DNA of 64,000 bases. Source: an uncultured Clostridia bacterium. Its GTDB lineage: Bacteria; Bacillota; Clostridia; Oscillospirales; CAG-272. A program made the position numbers and the translations under genes. Of this stretch, positions 56,117 through 62,494 are shown piece by piece. The stretch lies in the NCBI GenBank assembly GCA_946407735.1, contig CAMJPL010000003.1, positions 62,001 through 126,000 on the forward strand. The letters are read 5' to 3'. The notes below the pieces were generated by a model that was not told where the DNA came from, did no database searches, and saw only the letters and a program-made list of their open reading frames with translations. Position 1 is the first letter of the stretch. Each line of letters opens with the position of its first letter.

Positions 56117-58648
56117 ATGCGATCAGTATTCAGCGAAATGCTCTCGGGCGGCAATTATATCGCGCCCTTCCTGTGGCTTCACAACGAGGACGACAGCCTT
56201 ATCGTCCGCGAGCTCGAAAGGATACACGAATGCGGCATCGGCGCCGTCTGCCTTGAGTCCCGCACGCACGACGAGTTCTGCCGCGACGGCTGGTGGAGCG
56301 ACATCCGACTGATCTTTGACACCTGCAGAAGACTCGGCATGAAGGTTTGGATACTCGACGACAAGCATTTCCCGTCGGGCTATGCCAACGGAGCGTTCGA
56401 GCACGGCCATGACGACCTTCTGATAAAGGAGATCTCCGAGCATCACGTCGATATCGTCGGACCGGTCAGGGGCGGCGCGATAATCGCCGACGGCTTCAAG
56501 GAGGAAAAGGAGGACGAGCTTCTCGCCGCGATAGCCATGAAGCGCCTGCCGGGCGAGCAGATATACACCGGCGAGATGTACGACCTTACGGGCGGATATA
56601 AAGACGGCATGCTGTATTTCGATCTCCCCGAGGGCGTTTACAGCGTAGCCCTGCTGATGAAGACCCGCTCCGGCGTAAGGAACCGCACCTACGGTGACAA
56701 GCTCGACCCGAGAGCGACCGACGTTTACATAGACGCCGTCTATCAGCCGCATTACGACCGCTTCGCAGACGAGTTCGGCGGTACCTTCCTCGGCTTCTTC
56801 TCTGACGAGCCGGGGATATACAACGACTCGAAGCGCAGCTTCGCCGCGCCTATCGGCGAGAGGTTCACGCATTACCCGTGGAACGATTATGTCGCCGCCG
56901 AGCTTGAAAAGACATTCGGCGCCGGGTATATGAAAAAGCTGTGCGGCATATGGTTCGATTTCGCCGACGGCACCTCGCAGACGGCGCGCACCGAATACAT
57001 GAACATCGTAACCCGTCTTTACGACGAGAATTTCGGCTCGAGGATCGGCAGGTGGTGTGAGGAGCACGGCTGCATGTACATCGGCCACGTCATCGAGGAC
57101 AACAACACCCACTACAAGCTGACGAACGGGAACGGGCATTATTTCCGCGCCCTCGCGGGTCAGCATATGTCTGGGATAGACGTCGTGCTGCATCAGATCG
57201 TGCCGGGACTCACCGAGTACTCGAATACCGGCTGCGTCAGCTACAGGCAGATGGACAACGTCTTCTTCCACTATGTCCTCGCCAAGCTCGGCTCGTCTCT
57301 CGCCGTCCTCGACAAAAAGAAGAACGGCCTCGCCATGTGCGAGATATTCGGCGCGTACGGCTGGGCCGAGGGTACGAAGCTGATGAAATACCTCACCGAC
57401 CATATGCTGGTAAGAGGCATCAATTATTTCGTCCCTCACGCCTTCTCGCCGAAGCCGGACGATCCCGACTGCCCGCCGAACTTCTATGACAGCGGCAAAA
57501 ACCCGGAATACCGCTATTTCGGCGCTTTGATGCAGTATATGAACAGGATGTCGCGTCTTCTCAGCGGCGGGGAGCATGTCTGTGACGTCGGGCTCATATA
57601 TGACGCCGAGGCGGCATGGTCGGCGAAGGACAGGACGCCGATGCAGGATATCGCGAAGGTTCTCTACGATTCCCAGATCGACTATGAGATCGTGCCGTAT
57701 GACCTGCTGAGCGAAAGCGCCGGGCGCTACAAGGTGATCATCCTGCCTTACGCGTCGTATATCCCGCCCGAAGATCTCGCGGCGCTGAAGAAGATCGGCG
57801 GCGCGCCGGATGTGAAGCTCATCTGCGTCGGCAGCGGCGGGAGATCCGTTCCCGGCTTCGGCTTTGTGCCTCTGGATTCGCTTGCAGGGTATCTTTCCGA
57901 CATGAGAGACGTCACGCTCTCGGACAGCAGCAAATTCGTCCGCGCGATGCATTACAGGAAGTCCGGCTCCGACGTCTATATGCTGATAAACGAAGACATA
58001 ACGAAGACCGTCGAAACGTCGGTCAGGTTGAGAGGTTTCGGCGGAGGGAAATATCTTCTCTCTGACATATACGGCTGCCGCGCCTCCGTTTTTGACAGCC
58101 CGAACGGTCTTATAGACGTGACGCTCCCGCCGTACCAGTCCGTCGTCATAATCCCCGGCGAGTCTGACACGGGAGAGTTCGAGCCGTATGACGAGATCCT
58201 TTACAGGGATCTCCCCGGCGGGCGCACCGTCAGACCCGAATGGGAGATATCGGTATGCGCCGAGAAGGACTATCCCGATTTCAGACCGTACCGGACGGTG
58301 TCGGAGCTTATCAACATCGCGTCCCCGGACGAGATGCCCGATTTCGCCGGGCATATAATGTATAAGGCGGTGTTCGATCTCGATGACAGCGAGGGTGACG
58401 GGCGGCTGATCCTAGATCTGGGCGATGTCGGGGAGGTCTCGCAGGCAGAGCTCAACGGCAGACCGCTCGGCGTCCGCAGGCTCCCGCCGCACAGATACGA
58501 CATCACCGACAGCGCGGTAAAACAGGGCAACGTGCTTACCGTGACGGTGTCGACTACGTCGGCGTACAGATACCGCGACCCGTTCTCGAAGTTCCTTCTT
58601 CTTGAGCCCGAAGGGCTTCTCGGACCGGTGAGGATCATAAGGGTTTGA
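56117..58648 (+). CDS. Large putative glycoside hydrolase (GH106/alpha-L-rhamnosidase-like), no signal peptide
   Basis: APFLWLHNEDDSLIVRELERIHECGIGAVCLESR...RRLGMKVWILDDKHFPSGYANGAF; C-terminal beta-sandwich-like region. Family assignment tentative. Confidence 0.6.
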   Translation: MRSVFSEMLSGGNYIAPFLWLHNEDDSLIVRELERIHECGIGAVCLESRTHDEFCRDGWWSDIRLIFDTCRRLGMKVWILDDKHFPSGYANGAFEHGHDDLLIKEISEHHVDIVGPVRGGAIIADGFKEEKEDELLAAIAMKRLPGEQIYTGEMYDLTGGYKDGMLYFDLPEGVYSVALLMKTRSGVRNRTYGDKLDPRATDVYIDAVYQPHYDRFADEFGGTFLGFFSDEPGIYNDSKRSFAAPIGERFTHYPWNDYVAAELEKTFGAGYMKKLCGIWFDFADGTSQTARTEYMNIVTRLYDENFGSRIGRWCEEHGCMYIGHVIEDNNTHYKLTNGNGHYFRALAGQHMSGIDVVLHQIVPGLTEYSNTGCVSYRQMDNVFFHYVLAKLGSSLAVLDKKKNGLAMCEIFGAYGWAEGTKLMKYLTDHMLVRGINYFVPHAFSPKPDDPDCPPNFYDSGKNPEYRYFGALMQYMNRMSRLLSGGEHVCDVGLIYDAEAAWSAKDRTPMQDIAKVLYDSQIDYEIVPYDLLSESAGRYKVIILPYASYIPPEDLAALKKIGGAPDVKLICVGSGGRSVPGFGFVPLDSLAGYLSDMRDVTLSDSSKFVRAMHYRKSGSDVYMLINEDITKTVETSVRLRGFGGGKYLLSDIYGCRASVFDSPNGLIDVTLPPYQSVVIIPGESDTGEFEPYDEILYRDLPGGRTVRPEWEISVCAEKDYPDFRPYRTVSELINIASPDEMPDFAGHIMYKAVFDLDDSEGDGRLILDLGDVGEVSQAELNGRPLGVRRLPPHRYDITDSAVKQGNVLTVTVSTTSAYRYRDPFSKFLLLEPEGLLGPVRIIRV

Positions 58649-58704
58649 CGTGAGCCGCGCGGAAAAGGCGCGATATATTCAGGAAAGACTGATCGGAGGA
58701 AGAT

Positions 58705-60222
58705 TTGTACAAAAACGGACTGCGTAAAAAACTCAGGGAGGCTGTTGTATCGGTGCTTCCCATCGCCGCAATAGTTCTGATCCTCTGCGCGGTCGTGACA
58801 CCTGTGGCTACTGACACAATGCTTGCATTCATAGTCGGGACCGGGATGCTGATATTCGGTCTGGGGGTGTTCGCGTACGGCGCCGAGAACTCGATGACCA
58901 AGATCGGGAACCTCATCGGATCGAAGCTGACGGCCACCAGGCGCGAGCCGCTGATAATCATTCTGAGCTTCGCGCTCGGCGCCATAATCACGATAGCCGA
59001 GCCGGACCTCGCCGTGCTCAGCGACAACGTGCCGCATATAAACTCGCTCGTACTCAAGATCACGATAGCTGTCGGAGTCGGACTGTTCCTTACTCTCAGC
59101 ATGTGGAGGATCCTTCACGGTTTCCAGCTCAGGATAATCCTTATCGTCTCGTATGTCATCGTCTTCATCCTCGCCGCGATCTCCGATCCGAGATATCTCG
59201 CGGTCGCCTTCGACGCCGGAGGCGTGACGACGGGACCCATGACCGCGCCGTTCATCATGGCGATGGGCATCGGTGTCGCGGCGATACGTTCCGACCGCAA
59301 CGCCGAGGCGGACAGCTTCGGACTCGTCGGGCTCTGCTCGGTGGGACCGATACTTGCGGTGCTGATACTCGGTTTCTTCTATAAAGGAGAGGAAGGGATC
59401 ATCTCGGCCGCCGAGGCCGGGAGCTACGCCGACACCTTCGAGCTCAGCGCCAGCTATGTGAAGGCCGTTCCGCACTATATCTTTGAAGCCGGGATGTCGC
59501 TCCTTCCGGTAGCCCTGTTCTTCCTCGCGTTCCAGATATTCAGCCTGAAGCTGTCAAAGCTGCCGCTGATACGTATCCTCGCCGGCATGATGTTCACCTA
59601 TACCGGCCTCGTGATCTTCCTCACCGGGGTGAACGTCGGCTTCTCGTCGATGGGAGTCATACTCGGCAGGAGCATGGCGGGCGGATGGAAGATGTATCTC
59701 CTCGTCCCGGTGGCGATCCTGATAGGCTGGTTCATAGTCAAGGCCGAACCGGCGGTCATAATCCTGACTAAGCAGGTCGAGGAGATCTCCGCCGGAGCGG
59801 TATCTGAAAAGGCGATGAACGCCGCGCTGAGCGTCGCCATCGCCTCCGCCGCCGGCATAGCCATGCTGCGCGCTTTGACCGGGATAAACCTGTACTGGTT
59901 CCTCATCCCCGGCTACGCCGTGTCGCTGATCCTGTGTTCGGTGGTGCCGCAGATATTCACGGCGATCGCCTTCGACGCCGGCGGCGTCGCATCGGGACCG
60001 ATGTCCACCACGTTCATGCTCCCTCTTGTGATGGGCGCGTGCCAGGCGTCGGGAGGGAACATCCTGACCGACGCGTTCGGATGCGTGGCTCTGATTGCCC
60101 TGATGCCGCCGATAACGGTGCAGATAATGGGGCTCATCACGGTGCTGCGCTCCCGCCGCGCCGAGACCGTGCCGCCGGAGAGCTTCGCCGACGACGAGAT
60201 AATCGAGCTCTGGGAGGTCTGA
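58705..60222 (+). CDS. DUF1538-family integral membrane protein, internally duplicated
   Basis: VAFDAGGVTTGPMTAPFIMAMGIGVA and IAFDAGGVASGPMSTTFMLPLVMGACQ repeats; EPDLAVLSDNV / EPAVIILTKQV repeats. Confidence 0.85.
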   Translation: MYKNGLRKKLREAVVSVLPIAAIVLILCAVVTPVATDTMLAFIVGTGMLIFGLGVFAYGAENSMTKIGNLIGSKLTATRREPLIIILSFALGAIITIAEPDLAVLSDNVPHINSLVLKITIAVGVGLFLTLSMWRILHGFQLRIILIVSYVIVFILAAISDPRYLAVAFDAGGVTTGPMTAPFIMAMGIGVAAIRSDRNAEADSFGLVGLCSVGPILAVLILGFFYKGEEGIISAAEAGSYADTFELSASYVKAVPHYIFEAGMSLLPVALFFLAFQIFSLKLSKLPLIRILAGMMFTYTGLVIFLTGVNVGFSSMGVILGRSMAGGWKMYLLVPVAILIGWFIVKAEPAVIILTKQVEEISAGAVSEKAMNAALSVAIASAAGIAMLRALTGINLYWFLIPGYAVSLILCSVVPQIFTAIAFDAGGVASGPMSTTFMLPLVMGACQASGGNILTDAFGCVALIALMPPITVQIMGLITVLRSRRAETVPPESFADDEIIELWEV

Positions 60223-60225
60223 TTT

Positions 60226-60891
60226 ATGGTGCTCAACCTTGTGACGGTCATCACTGACCGTACGAACGAAGATATAATGATCGGTATATGCGGCGAGCTC
60301 GGGCTGTCGGTCACCTTTACCGTACTCGGCCACGGCATGGCTAAAAGCGAGCATCTCGCGCTGTACGGCCTTGAGGCGACCGAAAAGGCGGCCGTGCTCA
60401 CCTTCGCTGACGAGGACAAGACGAAGGAACTTATAAAGAGCGCGAGAAGGAAACTCAGCATAGACATACCCGGCAACGGCATACTGGTCAGCGTGCCTGT
60501 CAAAAGCATCGGAGGAGGCAAAACCTTGGCGTATCTCACGAACAACACCGTCCCGGGAGGGAAGAGCCCGGAGCTGAACGTCAGCCACGAGCTTATAATA
60601 TGCATCCTGAATCAGGGCTATACCGACGACGTCATGGCGGCGGCGAGATCCGCCGGAGCGTCGGGCGGCACCGTCCTTCACGCCAAGGGCACAGGCGCTG
60701 ATTTCGCCAGAAAATTCCTCGGCGTCTCGCTCGCCAGCGAGAAGGAGATACTTCTCATAGTCGCCGAGGCGGAGGACAAATCCGCCATAATGAAGGCTAT
60801 CACGGAGAAAACAGGCCCGCAGACCCCCGCCGGAGCGATAAGCGTGTCGCTTCCGGTTACCGAGGTCGCCGGACTGAGAGCGAAGATATGA
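60226..60891 (+). CDS. Tandem PII-like (GlnB-fold) signalling protein
   Basis: C-terminal half ELIICILNQGYTDDVMAAARSAGASGGTVLHAKGTG...EKEILLIVAE is PII-like; N-terminal half is a divergent copy. Confidence 0.78.
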   Translation: MVLNLVTVITDRTNEDIMIGICGELGLSVTFTVLGHGMAKSEHLALYGLEATEKAAVLTFADEDKTKELIKSARRKLSIDIPGNGILVSVPVKSIGGGKTLAYLTNNTVPGGKSPELNVSHELIICILNQGYTDDVMAAARSAGASGGTVLHAKGTGADFARKFLGVSLASEKEILLIVAEAEDKSAIMKAITEKTGPQTPAGAISVSLPVTEVAGLRAKI

Positions 60892-60921
60892 CACATCTCT
60901 GTGATCTGCCTGAATGATATG

Positions 60922-60946
60922 AAAAACCGCCCCGCGGCGGTTTTTT
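60922..60946 (+). terminator. Rho-independent terminator
   Basis: AAAAACCGCC-CCGC-GGCGGTTTTTT. Confidence 0.88.
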
Positions 60947-60978: not shown

Positions 60979-62337
60979 TCACGCCAGATTCGCCGAGCCG
61001 CCCTCCGACAGCTTTTTCGCTACCGATCTTCCGTCGAGCGAACGCACCGATACACCGGAGCTGATCGAAAGATAAGCGGCGACTCCGGCAGCCTCGCCGA
61101 GCTGGTTGAGGTTTACCATCACCCTCAGAGCGCCGAAAGAGAAGATATCGGCGTTTATCATCCTGCCGACGGCTATGAGATTGTCGTGGCGGACGGGGAC
61201 GAGGCAGGAGAAGGGGAGAGAGTAATACGTCGGGATCGGAAGGCTCTCGTCGATACCGAGCTCACGCCGCCAGCTCCCGGTGACCCTGCCGCCGTCGGCG
61301 AGCTCGGTGTTGAAGCTGCCGTCGAAGTGGTGGAAGGTTATGCTGCCGTCCGGCAGATGCACGTCGACGTTGTATGTCCCGTTCATGACGCAGTCGTCGT
61401 ATCTCTTCCCGAGCAAAAGCTCGAATTGATCGGCTTTTTTCGCCGTTACGTAATGCGCCGTTTCCCTTATGCCTATCGACGAGCAGGAGCTGACGTTCGC
61501 GTATCTTACGCCCTCGGCGCCGTATCTGTTCAGCATCCTTATGACGGCGCGCATCTTGCGCCTGCCCTCTATCTCCGCCTTCGTTAGATCCTCCGCTTTG
61601 TCGGGGATGAGCCCGAGCACATGGGTGTCGGCGCGCATCGTTATGTTTGAGGCGTCGGGTACACGGCAGAACCATCCCCAGTCCTTCTCAAGACCGAATT
61701 CATCGCCGTGATGGCGGATGAGCCTCGTGACGTCGACATGCGACACGTCGCCTTCAAGGAGGAAGCAGGCGCTCGGCGGCTGGATCGTCTGATTGTAGAA
61801 CTTCTCTATCCCGAGATCGCGACAGATATCACCGTCGCCGCTCGCATCGATGAAGAACGAGGCTCTGACGGCTCCGCGGCCGTCCTTGTTCTCTATGATG
61901 ATATATCTGACGCTGCCGTTCTCCTCCATGCATGAGCAGTAAAGGGTGTGAAGCATTACCCTGACGCCGTTTTCGGCGCAGAGCATGTCGAGCTCGGTCT
62001 TGAGCTCGTGAGGATTGAAGAAATGCGAGTCGGCATGATTTTTCCCTCTCGTTTCCGCCGGCTCGACGCGGGACAGGATCTCCTCGGTGAGACCGGCTAT
62101 GATCTGCTTTTCTCCCGACGTGTCGTTCAGCGTGTGCCAGCAGTTCACAAGCCCGGACGTCGCCGTCCCGCCGAGGCATCCCTCACGCTCGATCACGATC
62201 ACGGAAGCGCCGAGGCGCGCCGCCCGGACGGCGGCGAACACTCCGGTGCATGATCCGCCGATGACGCATATATCCGCCTCGGCGACGACAGGGATCTTCT
62301 TCTGCGGTTCCGTTATGAATTCAGCTTCGCGTTCCAT
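60979..62337 (-). CDS. FAD-dependent oxidoreductase (FAD_oxidored-type)
   Basis: ADICVIGGSCTGVFAAVRAARLGASVIVIEREGCLGGTATSGLV; FIDASGDGDI. Start trimmed to ATG 62337. Confidence 0.85.
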   Translation of the reverse strand: MEREAEFITEPQKKIPVVAEADICVIGGSCTGVFAAVRAARLGASVIVIEREGCLGGTATSGLVNCWHTLNDTSGEKQIIAGLTEEILSRVEPAETRGKNHADSHFFNPHELKTELDMLCAENGVRVMLHTLYCSCMEENGSVRYIIIENKDGRGAVRASFFIDASGDGDICRDLGIEKFYNQTIQPPSACFLLEGDVSHVDVTRLIRHHGDEFGLEKDWGWFCRVPDASNITMRADTHVLGLIPDKAEDLTKAEIEGRRKMRAVIRMLNRYGAEGVRYANVSSCSSIGIRETAHYVTAKKADQFELLLGKRYDDCVMNGTYNVDVHLPDGSITFHHFDGSFNTELADGGRVTGSWRRELGIDESLPIPTYYSLPFSCLVPVRHDNLIAVGRMINADIFSFGALRVMVNLNQLGEAAGVAAYLSISSGVSVRSLDGRSVAKKLSEGGSANLA

Positions 62338-62494
62338 AATTTCTCCCGAATATAAAGCCATTCATCTTACGCTTCGTCTGTACGGATATATTATACAGCA
62401 AAACGCCGCCGTTTTCAATACCCACGGCCGAATTCGGGGCCGATCCGGCTTTTTTATATGAATACGGATGGGGTTATTATTAACAATAGCCTGT

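Follow-up and report, generated by a model that had tools for sequence, protein, structure and literature searches.

A DUF1538 gene and a tandem PII-like gene in Clostridia as a candidate operon for a monovalent cation/proton antiporter under PII control

The DUF1538 gene and the tandem PII-like gene that lie together in the window, the 64,000-nucleotide stretch of an uncultured Clostridia genome analysed here, are read as an operon that encodes a monovalent cation/proton antiporter and its PII-type regulator, with a rough probability of 0.6; within this reading it is the gating and the ligand that we infer. The initial annotation had proposed a duplicated PII-like protein acting on a two-repeat transporter or channel. 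The tie between PII and the two-repeat transporter has been upheld, the linkage of the two genes being far beyond chance, but the channel reading has become less likely.

The DUF1538 gene (58705-60222, forward strand) encodes a 505 aa protein of the fused UmpA-UmpB type, as judged from Pfam, the homology of its halves, the domain tree, the AF2 model and the K/R bias, and starts with a TTG codon 5 nt past a Shine-Dalgarno GGAGG seen in the sequence (58695-58699, forward strand). The PII-like gene (60226-60891, forward strand, 221 aa), identified by its open reading frame, Pfam, hhalign, AF2 and a fold search, begins 3 nt beyond the DUF1538 stop codon, a spacing already remarked upon and borne out by the coordinates, and a GGGAGG lies within the 3' end of the DUF1538 gene. 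A common downstream terminator had also been claimed: a hairpin with an 11-pair stem and a T run is indeed present at 60921-60946 (forward strand) but, given that about two chance matches to the terminator scans are expected in this stretch, it is weak evidence on its own that a rho-independent terminator-like element closes the two-gene unit. The neighbouring frames are one of 843 aa upstream on the same strand (56117-58648) and one downstream on the opposite strand that resembles an FAD-dependent oxidoreductase (60979-62361). Neither the window nor 16 related loci showed an Rfam element close to the gene, so that no riboswitch points to the ion or ligand.

A neighbourhood survey, suggested by the initial annotation and here weighted towards one phylum, found the linkage of DUF1538 and PII to be conserved at every level. 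Among 59 close and order-level relatives, DUF1538 is present in 35 and the PII-like protein in the same 35, with one further relative carrying a weak partial PII match without DUF1538; the PII gene lies directly downstream of DUF1538 on the same strand in 36/36 close-relative loci. For named Clostridia, PII is beside DUF1538 in 79/79 evaluable loci with a median gap of 5 nt, these coming from a set of 80 that are nearest relatives by sequence and not independent, the 80th lying on a contig that ends too early to judge. A phylum-wide sample of 250 genomes, in which PII was counted at E <1e-15, comprised 83 with both genes, 165 with neither, 1 with DUF1538 only and 1 with PII only. The sole DUF1538-only genome holds a decayed copy with internal stops (83/84 DUF1538 genomes are paired), and the sole PII-only genome shows a contig-end truncation beside a DUF1538 remnant. 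On plasmids, the two genes occur in the same 9 of 72,556 records (9/9 paired), from Clostridia and Alphaproteobacteria, with the order umpA-umpB-P-II on the alphaproteobacterial plasmids of Methylocystis rosea and Chelativorans sp.; no relatives were found on viral contigs. At one locus (L219; G114:C1, ~2161174-2161630) a decayed DUF1538 with several stops is accompanied by no PII gene, and the two genes may be lost together. Elsewhere (L224; G159:C13:84184-84525) a lone PII of the DUF1538-linked type has no DUF1538 within the 7 kb fetched, in a genome that carries a full DUF1538-PII cassette at another place. RefSeq annotation names the DUF1538 neighbour 'P-II family nitrogen regulator', and no published account of the pairing was found in the open-access papers searched.

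Pfam PF07556 matches the DUF1538 protein twice (6.4e-126, 418 bits against a cut-off of 22.6) and its halves are homologous by hhalign (99.9%, E 1.5e-33), in agreement with the internal duplication first noticed in the letters. The two motif pairs that had been described are present, namely VAFDAGGVTTGPM / IAFDAGGVASGPM and EPDLAVLSDNV / EPAVIILTKQV. The first-half E-P-D motif (E99 P100 D101; 58999-59007, forward strand, coordinates from residue numbers) is invariant in the aligned fused proteins, falls at a break between predicted helices 81-97 and 100-108, and is a candidate ion or proton site. The first-half motif AFDAGGVTTGPM (A168-M179; 59206-59241) and its second-half counterpart AFDAGGVASGPM (A422-M433; 59968-60003), both on the forward strand, each coincide with a helix break in the AF2 model, and the second-half E-P motif (E348 P349; 59746-59751, forward strand) is invariant, as seen from the alignment and the AF2 model. 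All four acidic residues, E99, D170, E348 and D424, are invariant among the aligned fused DUF1538 proteins. The alignment also picks out an acidic C-terminal tail, FADDEIIELWEV (DDEIIEL type; 60184-60219, forward strand), predicted to be cytoplasmic. A DDxIIEL-like tail of this kind occurs in 66/134 fused DUF1538 proteins and in 0 split or single ones, and is a possible contact or docking site for PII.

The AF2 model of the DUF1538 protein (pLDDT 87, pTM 0.86) has seven helix groups per half, with helix breaks at E99-P100 and approximately G173-P178 and at the equivalent second-half positions E348-P349 and G427-P432, and the alignment indicates that the helix-break residues of both halves are invariant or nearly so. 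When K+R were counted over alternating loops, with borders taken from one AF2 model so that the values are approximate, the bias was +10.8 for fused and +5.6 for split first units and -6.1 and -5.6 for the corresponding second units, with single DUF1538 proteins near zero at +1.4 (range -3 to +4). The sign is positive for all first units and never positive for second units. Under the positive-inside rule this opposite bias implies opposite orientation of the halves, which points to inverted 7+7-helix repeats in the modelled protein, and by the same rule the single DUF1538 proteins probably have dual topology. Similar values have been tabulated for dual-topology proteins of the EmrE-like kind and for antiparallel pairs (PMC3962082). 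A whole-chain Foldseek search of the PDB with the DUF1538 model gave no significant fold match (best E 0.055, TM <0.2), known elevator and CPA antiporter folds included. Nor did phmmer searches of the PDB with the DUF1538 and PII-like proteins as individual sequences give a useful match; for PII a profile was needed.

The view that DUF1538 has no assigned substrate was mistaken: Na+(Li+,K+)/H+ antiport was demonstrated in 2017 for UmpA/UmpB, a DUF1538 pair from Halomonas zhaodongensis, the two proteins forming a heterodimer whose activity was seen in an antiporter-deficient E. coli strain (PMC5484666). Given this assigned activity, an antiporter is likelier than a channel, the two having been left side by side in the initial annotation. 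The cloned Halomonas zhaodongensis fragment ends with umpB as its last ORF and PII goes unmentioned in the paper (PMC5484666). UmpAB was thus active in E. coli without added cognate PII, which indicates that PII is dispensable for transport itself. DUF1538 is also among the genes predictive of growth pH, alongside Na+/K+ transporters (PMC13255231). The window protein matches the NCBIfam UmpA and UmpB models strongly (1e-42 and 5e-41) and scores far under their equivalog cut-offs (145.8 vs 490 bits for UmpA, 140.8 vs 500 bits for UmpB), so that its substrate could differ. Two ordinary Na+/H+ exchangers are encoded in the same genome.

Each half of the PII-like protein corresponds to a PII domain. 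The N-terminal domain (residues 1-112; 60226-60561, forward strand) is a diverged A-type by hhalign, AF2 and the tree, the Pfam P-II model giving no match to this half, and the C-terminal domain (residues 119-221; 60580-60891, forward strand) is B-type by Pfam P-II (1.9e-9), hhalign and the tree. With profiles from 75 relatives, hhalign aligned the N and C halves at 98.1% probability (E 6.6e-14) in the register proposed from the letters alone, three column-shuffled controls reaching 0.3, 1.2 and 5.7%. The internal duplication of this protein is thereby confirmed, and mutual profile similarity of the halves, compared separately, holds for both proteins. In the AF2 model (mean pLDDT 84.8, pTM 0.79) each half is a twice-repeated beta-alpha-beta unit, and a PDB fold search returned single-half-length matches to GlnK1 (2j9d), PotN (7o4x) and SbtB (7obj). 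Pfam P-II (PF00543) matches 57/57 B-type domains, and the best PDB hit of a profile of these 57 is 9p1x_H (4.4e-8), a chain from an entry that contains 12 chains of one kind of P-II protein and 6 of another and that we take to be possibly of the NifI1-NifI2 kind; its assembly may offer a view of how paired PIIs assemble.

For the ligand residues, the reference was the genome's other PII, a canonical one that is fused to the ammonium transporter AmtB and forms its C-terminus in one 615 aa frame (PII domain at G000:C25:43573-43887, locus L065, outside the window). Relative to this protein, the T-loop of the PII-like protein is about 3 residues shorter, with LFG/FFG-like segments in the place of YRG; neither QKG (canonical Gln39) nor the uridylylated tyrosine is present, PGxGI or PAGAI takes the place of GDGKI in the B-loop, and the C-loop is without the arginine pair (R101, R103). 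We take GDGK, R101 and R103 to be the ATP-phosphate residues and the T-loop tyrosine to be the uridylylation site; as these are missing, the chemistry of AmtB-GlnK is not to be assumed. The PII-like domains do retain the GGT segment and the lysine that follows the T-loop, and the GGT motif together with a glycine-containing B-loop is conserved in most B-type domains. From these residues it is likely that the protein binds some ligand. A diadenylate cyclase encoded in the window genome is common and decides nothing on c-di-AMP as that ligand.

Across the loci compared the gene order is invariably DUF1538 followed by PII, and the number of units varies. Nine genomes have one DUF1538 and one PII (L191-L198, L230). 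Separate genes also occur as two DUF1538 with one PII, two with two, and two with a fused PII pair, and fused DUF1538 is found with two PII genes or, as in the window, with a fused PII. Whole umpA-umpB-PII cassettes are tandemly repeated in two genomes (L211, L212), and at L174 a second PII pair lies immediately upstream of another cassette. One locus nested in the fused group (L064; G045:C2) has a single UmpA-type DUF1538 and then a tandem PII, probably through loss of the UmpB half or through an assembly or frame problem. The domain tree separates all first units from all second units (100/100), each half of a fused protein lying with the genes of the corresponding position, and the single DUF1538 proteins form a third group outside first and second units, the tree being unrooted. 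In the PII tree, C-terminal halves cluster with single-domain PIIs (97/92). These groupings suggest an order of events in which DUF1538 duplicated, PII duplicated after it and the fusions came last. The transporter probably duplicated first, given the existence of loci with two DUF1538 and one PII, which also rule out simultaneous duplication of the two partners. The matched duplication that had been noticed therefore holds in so far as both partners are duplicated by hhalign, but not as a single concerted event.

In the mechanism proposed, the DUF1538 protein would be an UmpA-UmpB fusion of two homologous 7-helix halves in opposite orientations, and the Na+/K+ and H+ sites probably lie on the broken helices that mirror each other at the EP and FDxGGVxxGP motifs. 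The tandem PII-like protein would place a ring of PII domains on the cytoplasmic face, with clefts that may bind an adenine nucleotide or related signal, and with its T-loop region it would keep the antiporter in a closed or an open state, much in the manner of SbtB with SbtA or of GlnK with AmtB. SbtB-SbtA offers the precedent of a PII-like trimer that partly blocks its transporter from the cytoplasm with the T-loop (PMC8352866). In this scheme the substrate of the window protein, the physical contact, the direction of gating and the oligomeric state are what we infer. Weighing against a PII-gated antiporter are the activity of UmpAB without its cognate PII and the scores under the equivalog cut-offs, and the missing canonical ATP-phosphate and uridylylated-tyrosine residues weigh on it as well.

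It is possible that PII gates the DUF1538 protein but that the Clostridial branch moves another substrate, such as bicarbonate, an organic ion or ammonium. The window protein is only distantly UmpAB-like, antiport across the whole DUF1538 family rests on one study, and transporters of bicarbonate and of ammonium are known to have PII-like proteins as neighbours (PMC3831643). This scenario is nevertheless rather unlikely, given that the four acidic residues are invariant among the aligned fused proteins, that the EP and FDxGG-like motifs recur across the single, split and fused forms seen, and that DUF1538 is grouped with Na+/K+ transporters in growth-pH predictors (PMC13255231); for ammonium in particular, the transporter of this genome has its own fused PII. 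The near-perfect co-occurrence of DUF1538 and PII, the increase in PII copies along the DUF1538 series, which subunit stoichiometry would lead one to expect, and the loss of canonical ligand residues would also suit a PII-like protein that is an obligate structural or assembly subunit and not a ligand-driven gate. Such a role is improbable: UmpAB works in E. coli without co-expressed cognate PII (PMC5484666), the arrangement of two DUF1538 with one PII is common, and the GGT and glycine-containing B-loop kept in most B-type domains suggest a ligand.

The strictness of the linkage bears on two further readings. The PII-like protein might sense the state of the transporter or the energy charge and relay it to another target, the linkage reflecting shared regulation only, and this would accord with PII proteins in general, which usually act on several targets. 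However, the annotated stretches that were read show no recurrent third gene and so strict a linkage favours a direct partner, and the relay is accordingly very improbable. That the adjacency is due to chance, or that the repeats are spurious, is hardly credible: no point in its support was found, and both the linkage survey and the hhalign comparison of the halves refute it.

PII proteins are best known for coupling nitrogen or carbon status to the transport of ammonium, nitrate or bicarbonate, and among PII-transporter pairs the one described here is new in the type of its target. A broader proposal, put forward tentatively and at somewhat less than even odds, is that there exists in Clostridia and Alphaproteobacteria a separate branch of PII signalling that governs monovalent cation/proton antiport by way of a transporter fold without a PDB match, in a family that keeps every stage from dual-topology single gene to inverted-repeat fusion, its PII partner having been duplicated and fused later. 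If true, common gut Clostridia would have in a dedicated PII a direct link from their energy or metabolite state to the pH and salt balance inside the cell. The DUF1538 family, for its part, looks like a complete record of the passage from a dual-topology protein to a fused inverted repeat and of a soluble partner that followed the same path.

The pair can be compared with several known systems. As in AmtB-GlnK, the gene of a PII partner adjoins that of a membrane transporter, but AmtB is an ammonium transporter and GlnK has the canonical T-loop tyrosine and the ATP/2-oxoglutarate residues that are absent from the window PII. NifI1 and NifI2 are encoded by adjacent, divergent PII genes and work as a pair on nitrogenase; the pairing of two PIIs is shared, whereas the target here is a transporter and the PIIs are fused. 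UmpAB belongs to the same Pfam family and is a heterodimer of two homologous 7-helix units in the order A-B, which the window carries fused in 505 aa and followed by a PII-like gene, with the equivalog cut-offs unreached. SbtA-SbtB likewise combines an inverted-repeat transporter and a protein of PII fold in one operon, but SbtA is of another transporter family with 5+5 helices, and SbtB consists of one PII domain, to which some homologs add a C-terminal redox loop, and not of a tandem (PMC8352866). Finally, the dual-topology families of DUF606 or SMR type (PMC3962082) resemble DUF1538 in comprising single genes, fused two-domain forms and gene pairs whose members are oppositely biased in K/R; DUF1538 differs in that each unit has 7 helices and that the gene of a PII partner is there at every stage.
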